A stretch of 64,000 bases of DNA from positions 1 to 64,000 of the IMG/VR virus record IMGVR_UViG_3300044712_002465. The stretch is one strand, 5' to 3'. Below the pieces are notes generated by a model that did no database searches, was not told the DNA's origin, and was given only the letters and a program-made list of their open reading frames with translations. The position numbers and the translations under genes are program-made. Below, piece by piece: positions 33 through 9,367 of the stretch; the stretch's first letter is position 1, and each line of letters begins with the position of its first letter. This DNA comes from a virus.

Positions 33-1406
33 CTACGCACCCTTGGCGATCCTAAGCGACCGGCGCGAACCGCCCCCTCCGTTTTCACACGGCTGGGGTC
101 GCAGGTTCGAAACCTGCAGCGCCCACTCCTCAGATGACCCCGAAGCCCCCGTAACCACGGGGGCTTTTTCATTTCCGGCGCCCTGCTCCACCGGCGCGGC
201 CGGCCCGCCGCCCGGGGTTTGCCCGCCGCCTGCCCGACGCCAGGCGGCGTCCACGGCGGCCCGGGCGTCCTCGGCGACCATGTGCCCGTACAGGTCCACC
301 GTCGTCCGGATGTTCGCGTGCCGGAGGATCTTCTGGACGTGCTGCATCGGCACGCCGAGTTCGAGGAGGATCGTCGCGGTGGAGTGGCGCAGGTCGTGGA
401 ACCGCATGGGCCGCGGCACGGCCTTTGGCCATAGCCGCATGCTGCAGGTCGGGCAGCGGCGCTCCGCCGCGTCCGGGTGCTCCCAGCTCGCCGGCGCGCG
501 CCCCGCGCCCTTGCAGCGCCGGCAGACGTGCTCGTAGCCGAGGACCAGGCCCGCCCGACCGAGCGCGGTGCGGAGGGCCTTCTGGGGATCGGCCTCCTTC
601 GTCCGCATCTTGCCGCCGCGGCCGGGGAAGACGAGCGAGCCGCCGCGGGCGAGGGCCGCCTCGAGGTATGGGACCAGCGGCGGCGGGATCGGGATCGTCG
701 TCTCCTCGTCCGTCTTCGTCGTCTCCTGGTCGAACGAGCGGCGGACGTGCATCACGCGCCGGGTGAGGTCGACGTCCCACGGACGGAGCCCGAAGACCTC
801 GCCCTTGCGAAGCGCCATGTAGACGCCGGCGGCGATCTCGCCACGCCAGTCCTTCGCCGCGTGCGAGAGGACGCGATCGATCTCGCCCGCGGACAGCGTG
901 TGGTAGACCTTCCGGCCCACCTTGCGGCGCTCCACGCGCTCGACCGGGTTCTCGCCCACCCAAAGCGGCGGCTCCTCGTCCTTCGCGCGCTCGATCACGG
1001 TGAGCAGGATCGATCGGACCTTGTTCACGAGCGCGGGCGCGCCGCCGGCAGCTTCGATCTCGCGCAGCCGGTCGGCGATGGCCGACCGCGTCACCTTCGC
1101 GAGCGGCAGATCCCCGAGGGCGGTCGCCTTCACGTGCTTCCCGAGGCGGTACCGCTCGTCGTCGCGCGAGCGCGGCTTGCATCGGCTCTCGACCCACCAC
1201 GAGCACAGCTCCCAGAACGTCGCCGAGGACTGGATGGGAAGCGGGTCGAGGCCGAGCTCCTGGCGCTCGACCTTGCGCTCGAGCTCGCCGGCGAGGCGCC
1301 GCGCCTCTGTCTTCGATTTGGCGGTGGTCCTTCGCTCCTGCCACTTCCCGCCGGCGTCGCGCCAGCGCACGTACCAGGTGGAGCCGCGCAGCCGGACGTG
1401 GGCCAT
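33..1406 (-). CDS. int: Tyrosine recombinase integrase with zinc-ribbon insertion
   Basis: This 457-residue site-specific recombinase probably catalyses integration at the tRNA core that its own 3' end overlaps. The N-terminal 50 residues look like an arm-binding domain, followed by a SAM-like core-binding domain. Catalytic residues visible are Arg200 (ALRKGE), His337 and Arg340 (HDLRH), His363 (LRHANIRTT) and Tyr373 (LYGH). Between the first Arg box and HDLRH sits a four-Cys insertion (Cys295, 298, 318, 321) that could bind zinc, which is unusual. ATG at 1406 has an AAGGGGTAGGA ribosome site. It is the last gene of the leftward operon. The C-terminus after about residue 400 is Pro/Gly-rich and encoded over the att region. 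Confidence 0.95.
   Translation of the reverse strand: MAHVRLRGSTWYVRWRDAGGKWQERRTTAKSKTEARRLAGELERKVERQELGLDPLPIQSSATFWELCSWWVESRCKPRSRDDERYRLGKHVKATALGDLPLAKVTRSAIADRLREIEAAGGAPALVNKVRSILLTVIERAKDEEPPLWVGENPVERVERRKVGRKVYHTLSAGEIDRVLSHAAKDWRGEIAAGVYMALRKGEVFGLRPWDVDLTRRVMHVRRSFDQETTKTDEETTIPIPPPLVPYLEAALARGGSLVFPGRGGKMRTKEADPQKALRTALGRAGLVLGYEHVCRRCKGAGRAPASWEHPDAAERRCPTCSMRLWPKAVPRPMRFHDLRHSTATILLELGVPMQHVQKILRHANIRTTVDLYGHMVAEDARAAVDAAWRRAGGGQTPGGGPAAPVEQGAGNEKAPVVTGASGSSEEWALQVSNLRPQPCENGGGGSRRSLRIAKGA
97..125 (+). other. tRNA 3'-half, phage attachment core
   Basis: A perfect tRNA T-arm is visible: stem GCAGG (101-105), loop TTCGAAA (106-112), stem CCTGC (113-117), then an acceptor 3' strand AGCGCCC plus discriminator A (118-125). 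The integrase gene reads through it on the other strand, giving the SNLRP-type tail common in integrases whose gene overlaps a tRNA attachment site. I cannot find the D-arm, anticodon arm or matching 5' acceptor (GGGCGCT) in bases 1-96. This is therefore a partial tRNA: attP, or the far copy of the core in an integrated element. The tRNA identity cannot be read. Confidence 0.75.
143..169 (+). terminator. Rho-independent terminator-like hairpin after the tRNA core
   Basis: AAGCCCCCGT (143-152) pairs with ACGGGGGCTT (157-166) around a 4-base loop and is followed by a T run to 169. It points away from the tRNA fragment, as the terminator of a tRNA gene would, but also lies inside the integrase coding region, which reads across it in antisense. 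Such carried-along tRNA 3' ends plus terminators are usual in attP regions. Confidence 0.6.
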
Positions 1407-1819: not shown

Positions 1820-2062
1820 TCAAGACGGCCTGGAAGTCAGCGGGATCACGACAGCTCCCGGACGCTGCACCTCGCGGAGCGCCCGGATCGCGGCGGGGTC
1901 GAAGCGGAGGACCCCCAGGATCCGGATCGAGGGGAGCCGGCCTGCCGAGCTCTCGCGGTACACCCAGGAGCGGGAGAGCTTCAGGTACCGCGCGACGTCG
2001 GCCGCGGTCCACAGCTCGGCTTCCTGGTCGACGGTGGGCGGGGTGTTGTTCGGAGCGGCCAT
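1820..2062 (-). CDS. MerR/HTH_17-like DNA-binding protein, candidate excisionase
   Basis: An 80-residue protein with a winged-helix DNA-binding core at about residues 17-55: LWTAADVARYLKLSRSWVYR, then GRLPSIRI and LRFDPAAIRAL. This is the usual layout of AlpA/excisionase-type HTH_17 proteins, where the first helix pair reads DNA and the wing carries the arginines. Its place two genes upstream of int fits a recombination directionality factor that helps excision. It could also be a transcription regulator; nothing in the sequence separates the two. Confidence 0.75.
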   Translation of the reverse strand: MAAPNNTPPTVDQEAELWTAADVARYLKLSRSWVYRESSAGRLPSIRILGVLRFDPAAIRALREVQRPGAVVIPLTSRPS

Positions 2063-2071
2063 GGTGGTCCT

Positions 2072-3946
2072 CTACGCGGTGATGGACATCAGCTCTTCGC
2101 GCGCTCGGCCGTCCTCGCGGACCCAGATCCCCTCGGACGAGAGGAACCAGGTCCCGAGCGAGCCGGCAAGGAGCGCCTTCAGGATCGAGACGGCGATCGC
2201 CGTGGCGGCCTGCACCGGGACGGCGTTCCCGATGCGCTCGCCCCAGGAAGCCGAGGACCGCCCGGCGAGGCGCAGCGGCGCGCCGCGCACGGTGGCGGGC
2301 AGACCCTGGAGCGCGGCGCGGTCGAGGAGCGTCATCGGCCGGTGCCAGGTCCCGTCGGCCGCGACGATGACCGGGACGTGCTGGGGCGCGCGCCGCGGGT
2401 CGGCGATCGCGCACGCGCTGTTGTCGATCCGGCCGCCCGTCACGGTCGCGGCGGCCTCGTCCCACCGGAGGACGCCGTACGCGGTCGCCCGGGGGGTGCA
2501 GGTCGGGCGCGGATCGGCGACCGATCCGGGGCCGGTCCGGACGTTCGACGCGCCGCGCACCGTCGGGGAGGGATCCCCCCACGCGACGACGCCCAGCGCG
2601 CCGCGGTAGGGCTCGTGGTCGAGCGCGACCCGGGGGTCCGCGACGCTCGCCGGCGTGTTGGAGCGGGCGGGCGCCATCGACCCGGTGACCGCCGGCGCCG
2701 GCGACGCCCACGGGACGACGCCGAACGTCCCGCCCCGGCTGGTGTCACCTCGTCCGATCCGAGGGTCGGCGACGCACGGCGCGCCGGATCCGGGGCGCGT
2801 TGCGGCGATCACCGTCTTCGCCGGCTCCTCCCATCCCTGCACCGCGTACTTGTTCCGGTGGGCGTTCGGGTTGCAGTTCAGCCGCGGATCCGCCACCGCG
2901 AAGCCACCGTTCGTCCCGCTGCCGGCGACCGTGCGCGCCGGCTCGTCCCAGGGGCGGACGTCGTACTTCGCGAAGACCTCGCGGCGCGGCTGGCCCGGCT
3001 CGAGCGGCGTGGACAGGCGGGGGTCCGCGACCGCGGCGGTCCCGGTCGAGGTGCTCACGGAGGCCGTGCCGTTCACGGCGCGCGTCGGCTCGTCCCAGGC
3101 CCCGACCGCCATGTGGCCCGGCCGCCCTTTGAACGCCTCCGCGTTCGCCCCGGTCTGCGCGAGAAGCGCCTCGGGAATCGAGGAGGGGAGGTCGCGCCAG
3201 TCGCCGCCCGCGGGGATGAGGGCGAGCCGGACCCAGTTCAGCCACGAGATCTTCGGGAGGCGGTGGAGCTCGCCGGCGGAGGCGTCCTCGGGAAGCGGGA
3301 GCTGGCCCAGGACCTCGCCGCAGCCCTTCACGCGCTGGAGCGGCGGGCGGTAGATGAAGGCCGGGACGTCCGCCGGCCGGCGGGCGACGAGGAGGAACCG
3401 GCGGCGGTGCTGGCCGAGCCCCCCGATCTCGCCGCAGTCGTGGGTCCCCTCGTGGAAGACGTACCCGTAGCGCGCGAGGAGGTCGCGGGCCTGGCGCAGG
3501 ATCTCCGCGCCGCGGCTCATGATCCCGGGGACGTTCTCGATGATGATCGCCGGCGGCGGCTCGTCCCAGGTCTCGCAGATGAGGAAGAGGCCCTGGAGCA
3601 CGAGCCGGTTCAGCGCCTGGTAGTGCTCGCGCTCGGCGCTCTTCGTCGGCAGGAGGCGGCTGTACCCCTTGCACGGCGGCGAGCTGAAGACGCAGTCCGG
3701 ACGGCGCTCGCCGGCGAACGCGCGCAGCTCCGCCGGCGTGAGGGTCGAGAGGTCCGCGCAGAGCGACGGCCCGTCGGAGAGCAGCTCGAAGTCGGCGCAG
3801 GCCTCGGCGTCGAGGTCGATCCCGCCGAGGTTCACGAAGCGGGCGCGGTCGCGGCCGAGCTGGGCCATCGCCTCGAGGAAGCCGCGCGCGCCCGCTCCGA
3901 GGCCGCAGAAGGGAAAGAGGACGGTGAAGTCGCGGGTGGCGGTCAA
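2072..3946 (-). CDS. C5 cytosine DNA methyltransferase with six tandem TRD-like repeats
   Basis: A 624-residue DNA (cytosine-5) methyltransferase. Motif I FPFCGLGAGARGF (11-23), catalytic Cys92 in SSPPC (motif IV), ENVPG (137-141, motif VI), GQHRRR (178-183, motif VIII) and GNAVP (573-577, motif X) are all present, so it should be active. The target-recognition region is expanded: six repeats of about 40 residues, each with a W-(D/E)-P-x-x-T-V-type motif (Trp284, 333, 372, 413, 456, 495) followed by VADPR or a near variant (306-310, 351-355, 392-396, 435-439, 476-480, 514-518). Multispecific phage methyltransferases carry several TRDs between motifs VIII and IX, so multiple target sites are plausible. 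No partner nuclease is nearby, which suits antirestriction. Confidence 0.92.
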   Translation of the reverse strand: MTATRDFTVLFPFCGLGAGARGFLEAMAQLGRDRARFVNLGGIDLDAEACADFELLSDGPSLCADLSTLTPAELRAFAGERRPDCVFSSPPCKGYSRLLPTKSAEREHYQALNRLVLQGLFLICETWDEPPPAIIIENVPGIMSRGAEILRQARDLLARYGYVFHEGTHDCGEIGGLGQHRRRFLLVARRPADVPAFIYRPPLQRVKGCGEVLGQLPLPEDASAGELHRLPKISWLNWVRLALIPAGGDWRDLPSSIPEALLAQTGANAEAFKGRPGHMAVGAWDEPTRAVNGTASVSTSTGTAAVADPRLSTPLEPGQPRREVFAKYDVRPWDEPARTVAGSGTNGGFAVADPRLNCNPNAHRNKYAVQGWEEPAKTVIAATRPGSGAPCVADPRIGRGDTSRGGTFGVVPWASPAPAVTGSMAPARSNTPASVADPRVALDHEPYRGALGVVAWGDPSPTVRGASNVRTGPGSVADPRPTCTPRATAYGVLRWDEAAATVTGGRIDNSACAIADPRRAPQHVPVIVAADGTWHRPMTLLDRAALQGLPATVRGAPLRLAGRSSASWGERIGNAVPVQAATAIAVSILKALLAGSLGTWFLSSEGIWVREDGRAREELMSITA

Positions 3947-4173
3947 GCTGCGCTCCTCGGGCGATCGGCGGCGCGGAGCGCCCGCACGTCGCGGTAGTAC
4001 GCGCGCTGGAAGGCGCGGAAGCAGGGGTACCCCGCCTCGCCGCGGCGGGGCTGCCGGCCGGCGAAGCAGTAGCGGGCGCCCGACGTCGGCTCCTCGCAGA
4101 AGACGCAGCGCCCGGGCAGCGCGCAGGCCTTCGCCGCCTCGAGGCCGTCGGGGTGGGGGAACGCGGGCGCCAC
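3943..4173 (-). CDS. Small Cys-containing protein
   Basis: A 76-residue protein whose stop overlaps the start of the methyltransferase gene (ATGA-type overlap), so the two are probably translationally coupled. It has a CVFC pair near residue 23, a single Cys near 36 and another near 51, and could bind a metal ion. The C-terminal third is Arg-rich. No family is recognised. It may help or regulate the methyltransferase, judged only from its position. Confidence 0.6.
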   Translation of the reverse strand: MAPAFPHPDGLEAAKACALPGRCVFCEEPTSGARYCFAGRQPRRGEAGYPCFRAFQRAYYRDVRALRAADRPRSAA

Positions 4174-6928: not shown

Positions 6929-7125
6929 CGGAGCCTCCGGGCGAGGTCGCAGAGGTCCTCCATCAGGTCCAGCGTCTCGTCCGCCTGGCGCTGGCGCTGG
7001 TGGTCCCGCACGACGCGCGCCGTCGAGGAGCCATCGCCGTAGTTCCCCAGTGTGACGGCGTCCCACGCGAGGGCGATCGGGACCTTCAACGCGGTGGTCG
7101 CGCAGCGTCTCAGGAAGCGCTTCAT
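6925..7125 (-). CDS. Small hypothetical protein
   Basis: A 66-residue protein with a basic amphipathic N-terminus (MKRFLRRCATTALKVPIALA) and a helical C-terminus ending LMEDLCDLARRLR. ATG 7125 sits in the 4-base overlap with the upstream ASCH gene. No family recognised; membrane association of the N-terminus is possible. Confidence 0.5.
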   Translation of the reverse strand: MKRFLRRCATTALKVPIALAWDAVTLGNYGDGSSTARVVRDHQRQRQADETLDLMEDLCDLARRLR

Positions 7126-7607
7126 CGCCCCTCCGTTGCGGCCAGCGCCGCGGCGACGTCCTCGGAGACGCGCCAGTAGCCGAGGGCGCCCCGGCACGGG
7201 ATCGGCTCGACGAGCTCGTGGCGCTCGACGAAGACCAGGCCCCACCGCCCGAACGTCCACTTCGACCGGAGCACCTGGTCGACCTGCGCCTGGGCGAGCT
7301 CGCCGACCACCTGGACGGCGCGGAGCGTGTCGCAGGTGTCGTCCGTGGGCTCGACCTCGACGGCGCCGGCGAGGATCGCGGTGCCCACGATGGCGCCGCG
7401 CGGCGCGGCCGCGGTGAGCCCGGCGACCTCGGCGGAGACGAGCTCGCGCGCGAAGCCCACCGCGTCGTCGGCCCACCCGCGGCTCGCGTGGAGGGCGATC
7501 CGCTGCCCGAGGGCCTTCGCCCACGGGCGCTGGTCGCGGTTCTCGACGTCCTTGAACCCCTTCAGGAGCAGCCACACCCACGGCTGCAGGAAGCTGAGGG
7601 CGAGCAT
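7122..7607 (-). CDS. ASCH-domain protein
   Basis: A 161-residue protein beginning LSFLQPWVWLLLKGFKDVENR, the typical start of ASCH (PUA-like) domains, where the Q-P-W and E-N-R residues line an RNA or nucleoside binding groove. IALHASRGW in the first third and GAIVGTAIL in the middle are also family-typical. ASCH proteins are linked to RNA binding or to cleavage of modified nucleosides (N4-acetylcytidine amidohydrolase in one branch). In a phage early operon this may act on modified nucleotides or host RNA. Start overlaps the HerA-like gene's stop. Confidence 0.8.
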   Translation of the reverse strand: MLALSFLQPWVWLLLKGFKDVENRDQRPWAKALGQRIALHASRGWADDAVGFARELVSAEVAGLTAAAPRGAIVGTAILAGAVEVEPTDDTCDTLRAVQVVGELAQAQVDQVLRSKWTFGRWGLVFVERHELVEPIPCRGALGYWRVSEDVAAALAATEGR

Positions 7608-9367
7608 CACGCGCCTCCCGTGAAGAACTCGGCGCTTGCCCGCAGCTCGCCGCGCCCCTCCACCAGCTCGAGCGCGCGGAGCCGGCCGAGGTACGTCGAG
7701 AACGTGCCGGAGACGTGGCTGATCTGGGCGGCCTGGCCGAGCTGCTCGTTCGTGAGGGCGTTCGGGTAGGCCTCGACGAGGGTCCGCAGCATGCGCGCGG
7801 CGCCGCCGCCGAGCTCGTGGATCCAGTACTCGGCGAGCGCCATGCCCTCGGGCAGGGGGTCGTACGCCCCGAGGGCCGCCAGGCCGGCGTCGGTGATCTT
7901 CAGGTGGCCGCGGCCGTCGACCCAGCCCTGCGACCGGGCGCGGCCGAGGTAGGTGGAGAACGTCCCGGAGCGGGAGGAGACGCCAGCGCGGACCCCGAGC
8001 TGCGCGTTCGTGAGGCCCTGGGGGCGCTGGGCGAGGGCGATGAGCATGCGGCGCAGGCCGGAGTTGCCCACCGCGGCGTCGCCGGCGCCCTCGGCCAGCC
8101 GCTCGGGGGCGGCGCGGGCGGGGATCGGCGCCGGGATCGGGCGGCGCGTCGGCGGGGCCACCGCCGCGGCCGAGCGCGGGAAGGGGACGAACGGCGCCGC
8201 CGGGCGCGGCGCGGGGGGCGGCTCGCCGGGGCGGGCGGCGCGCTCGATCTCGTGCCGGAGCTCCGCCGCGCTCATGGTCAGCCGGGAGGCGATGCCCTCG
8301 GCGCGCTCGACCAGCTTCACGAGGCGGTCGACCTGCGCGTCCTTCAGGACCGGGACCTCGACCCGCTTCTCCTTCGCCGGCGCCGGAGCGGCGGCCGCCG
8401 GCTTCTTGGCGAGCTCGCGCTCCAGCTCGACGATGCGCCTCCGGAGCGCCTTCGGGTCGTCCTTCTCGGCCGAGGCGACGACCTCGGCCAGGTCGCTGCG
8501 CAGCGCGGCGACGTCCATCGGGGTGAGCTTCCCGGCCGCGGCCGCCGCCCGCCCGACCTGGGGGGTCGCCGAGGCGTCGAACGTGGTCTTCCGGCCGAGG
8601 TGGATCCGGCTGAACGTCCGGAGCCAGGACGGGCTCCACAGGTACGCCTCGCCCACCGCCAGCCCGGGCAGCTCGCCGACCAGCTTCCGGTCCGCGTTCG
8701 CCTCCTTCACCCACCCCTCGAGCGCCTTCCGCTCGTGCTCCCCGTTCACCTGGAGGACGACGAGGCACTCGGTCTGGGAGAGGACCTCCTTGTTCACGGA
8801 CTGCGGGCGCTGCGTGATCATCGTGCAGCCGATCCCGTAGTTCCGGCCCAGGCGGACGATGTCCTCGAACGCGCCGAGCATCTGGCGCTCGTCAGCCTCC
8901 GGAACCTGCGGGACGAGCTTCTGCGCCTCCTCGAGGAAGAGGTGCATCGGCGAGCGCTGAGCCTTCTTGCGGTGGAAGAGCTCCTCGGCGAAGGCCGCGG
9001 CGAACCGCTTCCGCTCGCCCTTCCGGAAGCCCGAGACGTCGAGGACGACGGAGGCCCGCTTCTCGACGACGAGCTGGGCGATCCGCGGCCCGGCCTCCGG
9101 CGTGAGCGGCAGGTCGCCATGCTCCCCGCCGAAGACGTAGATGTCCTTCCCGCCGGCGGGGCGGCCGTCAGCACCGAGGCGGAGCGAGAACCAGTTCCCG
9201 ACGGGGTCGATGGCGACGACCTGGGCGCCGGCGTCGAGCATCTGCTCGGCGAGGAGCTGGGCGCCGTAGGTCTTCCCGCCGCCCTTGCGCGCGATGAACG
9301 CCAGGGTCTGGGTGACCGCGTCGAGCGGCAGGGCGAGGTCCTTGGCGATGCGGAGCTGCTTCGGCAC
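7607..9367 (-). CDS. HerA/DUF87-type ATPase with two C-terminal winged-helix repeats
   Basis: A DNA-translocase-like ATPase of about 586 residues. Walker A is ARKGGGKTYG near residues 26-35, Walker B MHLFLEEAQ near 143-148, followed by ITQRPQ, the order seen in HerA/FtsK-clade proteins. A Pro/Ala-rich hinge leads to two tandem wHTH repeats, each with TN(A/E)QLG and then SGTFSTYLGR. The GTG at 9367 has GAGGAGG five bases before it and is preferred over ATG 9409. No NurA-type nuclease partner is next door. Likely jobs are DNA pumping or remodelling in recombination, replication or defence. Confidence 0.8.
   Translation of the reverse strand: MPKQLRIAKDLALPLDAVTQTLAFIARKGGGKTYGAQLLAEQMLDAGAQVVAIDPVGNWFSLRLGADGRPAGGKDIYVFGGEHGDLPLTPEAGPRIAQLVVEKRASVVLDVSGFRKGERKRFAAAFAEELFHRKKAQRSPMHLFLEEAQKLVPQVPEADERQMLGAFEDIVRLGRNYGIGCTMITQRPQSVNKEVLSQTECLVVLQVNGEHERKALEGWVKEANADRKLVGELPGLAVGEAYLWSPSWLRTFSRIHLGRKTTFDASATPQVGRAAAAAGKLTPMDVAALRSDLAEVVASAEKDDPKALRRRIVELERELAKKPAAAAPAPAKEKRVEVPVLKDAQVDRLVKLVERAEGIASRLTMSAAELRHEIERAARPGEPPPAPRPAAPFVPFPRSAAAVAPPTRRPIPAPIPARAAPERLAEGAGDAAVGNSGLRRMLIALAQRPQGLTNAQLGVRAGVSSRSGTFSTYLGRARSQGWVDGRGHLKITDAGLAALGAYDPLPEGMALAEYWIHELGGGAARMLRTLVEAYPNALTNEQLGQAAQISHVSGTFSTYLGRLRALELVEGRGELRASAEFFTGGA

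Follow-up and report, generated by a model that had tools for sequence, protein, structure and literature searches.

Whether a single DNA methyltransferase can carry a whole array of target-recognition modules, and what such an array would do for its carrier, is the question raised by a gene near one end of a viral DNA record. The window, a stretch of 64,000 nucleotides from a 66.5 kb IMG/VR virus record, encodes a C5-cytosine methyltransferase in which six short units stand in tandem between the two parts of the catalytic core. At a probability of roughly 80%, sequence comparison favors reading these units as exchangeable target-recognition modules, arrayed in tandem in an orphan, phage-borne methyltransferase that is multispecific and acts against restriction.

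The gene is, by its sequence, an intact C5-cytosine DNA methyltransferase of the PF00145 type (Table 1). Motifs IV (PPCK, residues 90-93), VI (ENV, 137-139), VIII (QHRRR, 179-183), IX (RPMTLLDRAALQG, 536-548) and X (GNAVP, 573-577) are all found, as is motif I, judged by eye to be FPFCGLG near residue 12. The reading frame matches Pfam PF00145 (DNA_methylase, E 7e-13) and PHROGs 32684 (E 4e-49) and 116 (E 4e-39), all described as DNA (cytosine-5) methyltransferase; DNA_methylase is the sole Pfam match, and the Pfam search returned no family for the repeats. AlphaFold2 was given the full protein and a two-unit relative, with 66 and 28 family sequences. The catalytic domain is modeled mostly at pLDDT 90-98 and in Foldseek matches DNMT1/MET1, M.HaeIII and M.HhaI. 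The fold searches reached C5-methyltransferases through this domain, and the units gave no match information. With a unit pLDDT of about 34-56 in the window enzyme (about 28-56 over both models) and short strands in several units, the models are of no use for judging how far the units lie from DNA.

Table 1. Features of the methyltransferase gene and the adjoining genes; positions are those of the window.
Feature	Position	Strand	Basis or remark
C5-cytosine methyltransferase gene	2072..3946	-	ORF, 624 aa; TTG start at 3946, stop 2072-2074
Ribosome-binding site AGGAG	3953..3957	-	6 nt ahead of the TTG start; read from sequence
Catalytic domain, residues 1-263, motifs I-VIII (Cys92 of PPC, ENV, QHRRR)	3158..3946	-	Motif reading, AlphaFold2, Foldseek
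Putative recognition unit 1, type L (AFKGRPGHMAVGAWDEPTRAVNGTASVSTSTGTAAVADPR), residues 264-310	3017..3157	-	Unit HMM 30.5 bits; type in 13 proteins
Putative recognition unit 2, type N (KYDVRPWDEPARTVAGSGTNGGFAVADPR), residues 314-355	2882..3007	-	45.1 bits; type in 10 proteins
Putative recognition unit 3, type H (HRNKYAVQGWEEPAKTVIAATRPGSGAPCVADPR), residues 356-396	2759..2881	-	52.7 bits; type in 14 proteins
Putative recognition unit 4, type d (GTFGVVPWASPAPAVTGSMAPARSNTPASVADPR), residues 397-439	2630..2758	-	35.1 bits; type in 4 proteins
Putative recognition unit 5, type Z (YRGALGVVAWGDPSPTVRGASNVRTGPGSVADPR), residues 440-480	2507..2629	-	36.9 bits; type in 5 proteins
Putative recognition unit 6 (last), type Q (PRATAYGVLRWDEAAATVTGGRIDNSACAIADPR), residues 481-518	2393..2506	-	41.0 bits; M.HaeIII alignment
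C-terminal part, residues 519-624, motifs IX (RPMTLLDRAALQG) and X (GNAVP)	2075..2392	-	
Excisionase-like HTH gene adjoining the methyltransferase	1820..2062	-	PHROG 66/1840, PF12728
Tyrosine integrase	33..1406	-	PHROG 1 (E 1e-57), PF00589

The initial annotation had placed six units of about 40 residues between motifs VIII and IX, at Trp284, 333, 372, 413, 456 and 495, and they lie exactly there. The pattern that it had assigned to them is conserved as W(D/E)xPxxTV...VADPR but admits exceptions, with AV in place of TV in units 1 and 4 and A in place of P in unit 6; five units end in VADPR and one in IADPR. The six score 30.5-52.7 bits with a unit HMM built by iteration, against a maximum of 10.9 bits over 500 shuffles of the repeat region. 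The pooled dN/dS of the units shared with the nearest relatives is 0.18 (L001, a homolog 80% identical to the window enzyme), 0.11 (L002) and 0.16 (L027), lower than that of the catalytic domain in the same comparisons (0.29, 0.28 and 0.19). Because the unit values stay at 0.11-0.18, the units are kept up rather than decaying, and the ratios indicate purifying selection. Together, the shuffles and the dN/dS values rule out a chance repeat or decay, and the earlier view that the motifs are intact and the repeats no product of decay thus stands. Recent tandem duplication or homogenization is likewise rejected, since units within one protein are about as unlike as units from distant proteins (0.43 versus 0.40, matched pools).

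Every unit contains the TL motif of C5-methyltransferase recognition domains, which appears as P-A-x-T-V within the 32 core columns of the unit (GKYGVVPWDEPAGTVTGASSPGNGAFSVADPR) and for which a consensus has been described (PMC2413257). In such domains, DNA contacts flank TL, as NNN-x10-TL on the N-terminal side and TL-x3-CCC on the C-terminal side; the G contacts of HaeIII are arginines upstream of TL, and an arginine 8-9 residues upstream of TL goes with a G immediately 5' to the target cytosine (PMC2413257). When a profile of the last unit and the C-terminus is compared with all PDB sequences, M.HaeIII is the best match (E 1.9e-5, residues 225-325). The alignment spans the last unit and motifs IX-X and places aygVlkwdeasktvtg of the profile on residues 225-240 of M.HaeIII (RNRVRQWNEPAFTVQA). 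This homology is seen for the last unit only, and the other units are tied in by their likeness to it. The contact arginines of M.HaeIII, which we take to be Arg225 and Arg227 by our own numbering, fall on unit columns 2 and 4, the latter being Arg in 23% of distinct units.

Searching the unit HMM across relatives, as the initial annotation had suggested, recovers 942 units. The 171 relatives that hold them were taken as the 80 top scorers of each scan and are no random sample; each protein has 2-8 units, mostly 5-6. More than 570 matches to the repeat methyltransferase occur in IMG/VR, and it is present in 42 phage records and 183 plasmid records (H61-H75 plus a further 168). Phages of Pseudomonas, Sinorhizobium, Marinobacter and Achromobacter carry it; Pseudomonas (91), Roseomonas (17) and Burkholderia (15) are represented among the plasmids, of which 67 of 183 are conjugative and 26 of 183 mobilizable. 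The gene is also found in Myxococcota, Bacillota, Thermotogota and other genomes or metagenome-assembled genomes (MAGs). The nearest cellular relative found belongs to Anaeromyxobacter oryzisoli (75%, best segment), and the host of the window virus is an Anaeromyxobacter-like bacterium. One Corallococcus genome (G005) holds two different copies on separate contigs (C1:261563-263515 and C44:103580-105496). A literature search, with most older and subscription work, including the original SPbeta studies, outside its coverage, found no description of this repeat family.

For unit typing, 111 representatives with catalytic identity below 90% were used, which together hold 601 units. Thirty-five types of at least three members cover 525 of these, and over four thresholds the number of such types ranges from 32 to 49. 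The information gain on type is highest at T+8 (1.49 bits), T+6 (1.10) and T+12 (1.03), then at T-12, T+7 and T+9 (1.00), so the columns that carry type information concentrate at T+4 to T+12 and at T-12. T-5 and T-4, by contrast, have a total variability near that of T+7 or T+9, yet a gain of just 0.06 and 0.18 bits. As the types were clustered from the same residues, only this contrast between equally variable columns counts. The columns that separate the types coincide with the DNA-contact positions of HaeIII and HhaI. The TL motif, the alignment of the last unit with M.HaeIII and these type-specific contact positions all bear out the proposal that the units are of the target-recognition kind.

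The types recur in shuffled order. Unit types are common to proteins whose catalytic identity is as low as 33% (33-65%), in different orders, and 87 distinct architectures are found among 110 proteins. The window enzyme reads L-N-H-d-Z-Q and its close relatives L001, L002 and L027 read L-N-d-?-Z-Q, L-N-d-Z-Q and L-N-Z-Q, respectively, with type H in none of the three, and the more distant L003 reads N-A-Z-H-L-Q, largely the letters of the window enzyme reordered. On a quick catalytic-domain tree, the minimum number of changes is 12 for type H (14 proteins), 16 for G (22), 13 for F (23) and 6 for V (6). Single-unit swaps or gains are seen between enzymes with catalytic identity of 98-100%: one whole unit is gained between L117 and L160, whose catalytic protein sequences are 100% identical, and one is swapped in each of the pairs L100/L109 and L160/L167, at 99%. 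These cases and the shuffled orders support the supposition that the units recombine.

Duplicates of one type within a protein are rare, with 20 observed against 67±6 in permutations that ignore phage relatedness, and with 3 against 16±3 in a diverse subset without types A and B. Most naturally, this reads as selection that favors diversity of modules rather than copy number. The ends of the array behave differently from the middle. In proteobacterial phages, type A comes first in most and type B last, and the middle positions shuffle; the last unit is E in a Bacillota/Thermotogota-type clade and Q in the clade of the window enzyme. In two MAGs assigned to different phyla (Thermoanaerobacteraceae and Thermosipho, a difference that a binning error could explain), two-unit versions (L032:2998-4401 and L033:2998-4407) have identical unit regions and diverged N-terminal domains, which suggests a recent exchange of the recognition block.

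The surroundings of the gene are those of a temperate phage. The tyrosine integrase marks this end of the window as the integration end, and terminase, portal, tape-measure and DnaB helicase genes lie elsewhere in the window. Among the recurrent neighbors identified at about 111 representative loci, which include DUF5131, ASCH, DnaB, RdgC, sliding clamp and other methyltransferase genes, there is no partner restriction enzyme or endonuclease; the repeat methyltransferase is apparently an orphan. The DUF5131 (phage gp37-like) gene lies downstream in 17 of these roughly 111 loci (e.g., L110:6462-7466) and is a PADLOC candidate defense gene (PDC-M41B/M30B). The window itself has a small gene at 7122-7613 (minus strand; MLALSFLQPWVWLLLKGFKDVENRD...) that is ASCH-like by eye, its copy having no Pfam match, and ASCH-domain genes stand near the methyltransferase in eight other loci (e.g., L129:6309-6686). 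A HerA-like ATPase gene lies upstream of the methyltransferase (7607-9241, minus strand), and two other loci have similar ORFs close to their methyltransferase gene.

These observations can be joined in a model in which one catalytic core, composed of motifs I-VIII and IX-X, would serve six tandem recognition modules. Each module of about 40 residues would take a strand-loop-strand form: a strand with the N-terminal contacts, W(D/E)xPxxTV as the TL turn, a variable loop with the C-terminal contacts, and a return strand ending in VADPR. It would present two recognition loops around the TL turn to the single shared active site, and probably selects for methylation a short C-containing sequence of its own. 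With one target per module, the phage DNA could be guarded against several host restriction enzymes at once. Modules pass between phages and plasmids as cassettes, by exchange, gain and loss; the VADPR boundary is a plausible junction for this, and the set of protected sequences could therefore change quickly. An antirestriction benefit would fit the spread on phages and plasmids, as mobile DNA in need of protection from restriction; temperate Bacillus phages likewise array several recognition domains in one enzyme that protects against several restriction systems (PMC12707154). A broader proposal, that dozens of modules of about 35-40 residues form a shared pool of self-sufficient and freely exchangeable cassettes on phages and conjugative plasmids from several phyla, up to eight per enzyme and each with its own short target, has slightly better than even odds. 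If it is true, the C5-methyltransferase recognition code could be read module by module.

Some units, or the types locked to the ends (A at the front, B or E at the back), may have a structural role or none. A rival reading would leave specificity to the last unit before motif IX, with the upstream units forming a structural or general DNA-binding arm or a silent store of modules. The last unit is indeed the one that aligns with M.HaeIII, the first and last positions are locked to few types per clade (A first; B, E or Q last), and AlphaFold2 leaves the upstream units unplaced. However, the upstream units share the TL motif and the type-specific contact positions with the last one, are under purifying selection, retain their type identity across distant proteins and undergo the most exchange, and a passive arm needs neither type identity nor avoidance of duplicates. 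This alternative is therefore unlikely. Still less probable is a cooperative reading, similar to that of TAL effectors, in which each unit contributes a few bases to one long composite target. Short tandem repeats with hypervariable positions and a variable copy number would suit it, but the C5-methyltransferase TL motif in each unit belongs to a class of elements that recognize a short sequence surrounding the flipped base (PMC2413257), protection from one long and seldom-occurring target would be slight, unit order and number vary freely between relatives, and the known tandem recognition domains give one enzyme protection against several systems (PMC12707154).

The chemistry of the core has also been considered. 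The enzyme has an SPPC motif, and the family profile matches the structure of phage CmoX (8yf3), a DNA cytosine carboxymethyltransferase. That it makes 5-carboxymethylcytosine can nonetheless be rejected as highly improbable, since the carboxylate-binding Arg of CmoX is absent and motif X keeps its usual Asn (N574 of GNAVP), which is invariant in the family. Residue N374 of M.MpeI lies in motif X as well. The CmoX Arg (R350) mirrors the N374K change of M.MpeI (PMC12783734).

A multispecific array of exchangeable modules, the preferred reading, would bear on how a short C5-methyltransferase recognition region encodes its target, a question since the dissection of the Bacillus phage enzymes. The repeat family is a natural combinatorial library, with hundreds of members of one core type in many module combinations, and enzyme pairs that differ in a single module could be used to match every module type with its target and to test a code. 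It could further reveal how phages and plasmids match several restriction systems with one gene, and possibly lead to programmable methyltransferases for DNA mapping or labeling.

Among known systems, M.HaeIII (GGCC) has one recognition domain, a single target and a partner endonuclease, and its TL region and motifs IX-X are what align with the last unit of the repeat family. CmoX resembles the window enzyme as an SPPC-bearing homolog of C5-methyltransferases, and is not known to have tandem units. Type I HsdS works similarly, in that its specificity is altered by exchange of recognition cassettes, but it belongs to another protein family, has two large domains and serves adenine methylation by a separate subunit; the repeat family is no member of it.

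The closest parallel is with the Bacillus phage enzymes of the SPbeta group (M.SPRI, M.phi3TI, SPbeta MtbP and M.H2I), which follow the same plan of one polypeptide and one catalytic core. Both they and the window enzyme belong to temperate phages and place at least two tandem TL-bearing domains between motifs VIII and IX, six in the window enzyme. The modules of the latter had been described initially as far shorter, which does not hold, as the TL motifs are spaced 30-48 residues apart in M.SPRI and SPbeta MtbP (read from translations) and 39-49 in the window, a similar size. What sets the repeat family apart is its 2-8 regular units with a fixed VADPR boundary, its at least 35 recurring types, and its presence on phages and plasmids of several phyla; multispecificity is proven for the Bacillus phage enzymes and here is predicted from sequence. 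The unit HMM does not score the recognition domains of M.SPRI, MtbP and SPbetaL3 above shuffled background, and the likeness is therefore one of architecture, not of homology. The catalytic domains are also remote, with a marginal best BLASTP match of 36 residues (E 0.001). Membership of the SPbeta/SPR class by descent thus finds no support, and the repeat family is best read as working like that class while representing a different lineage with more modules.
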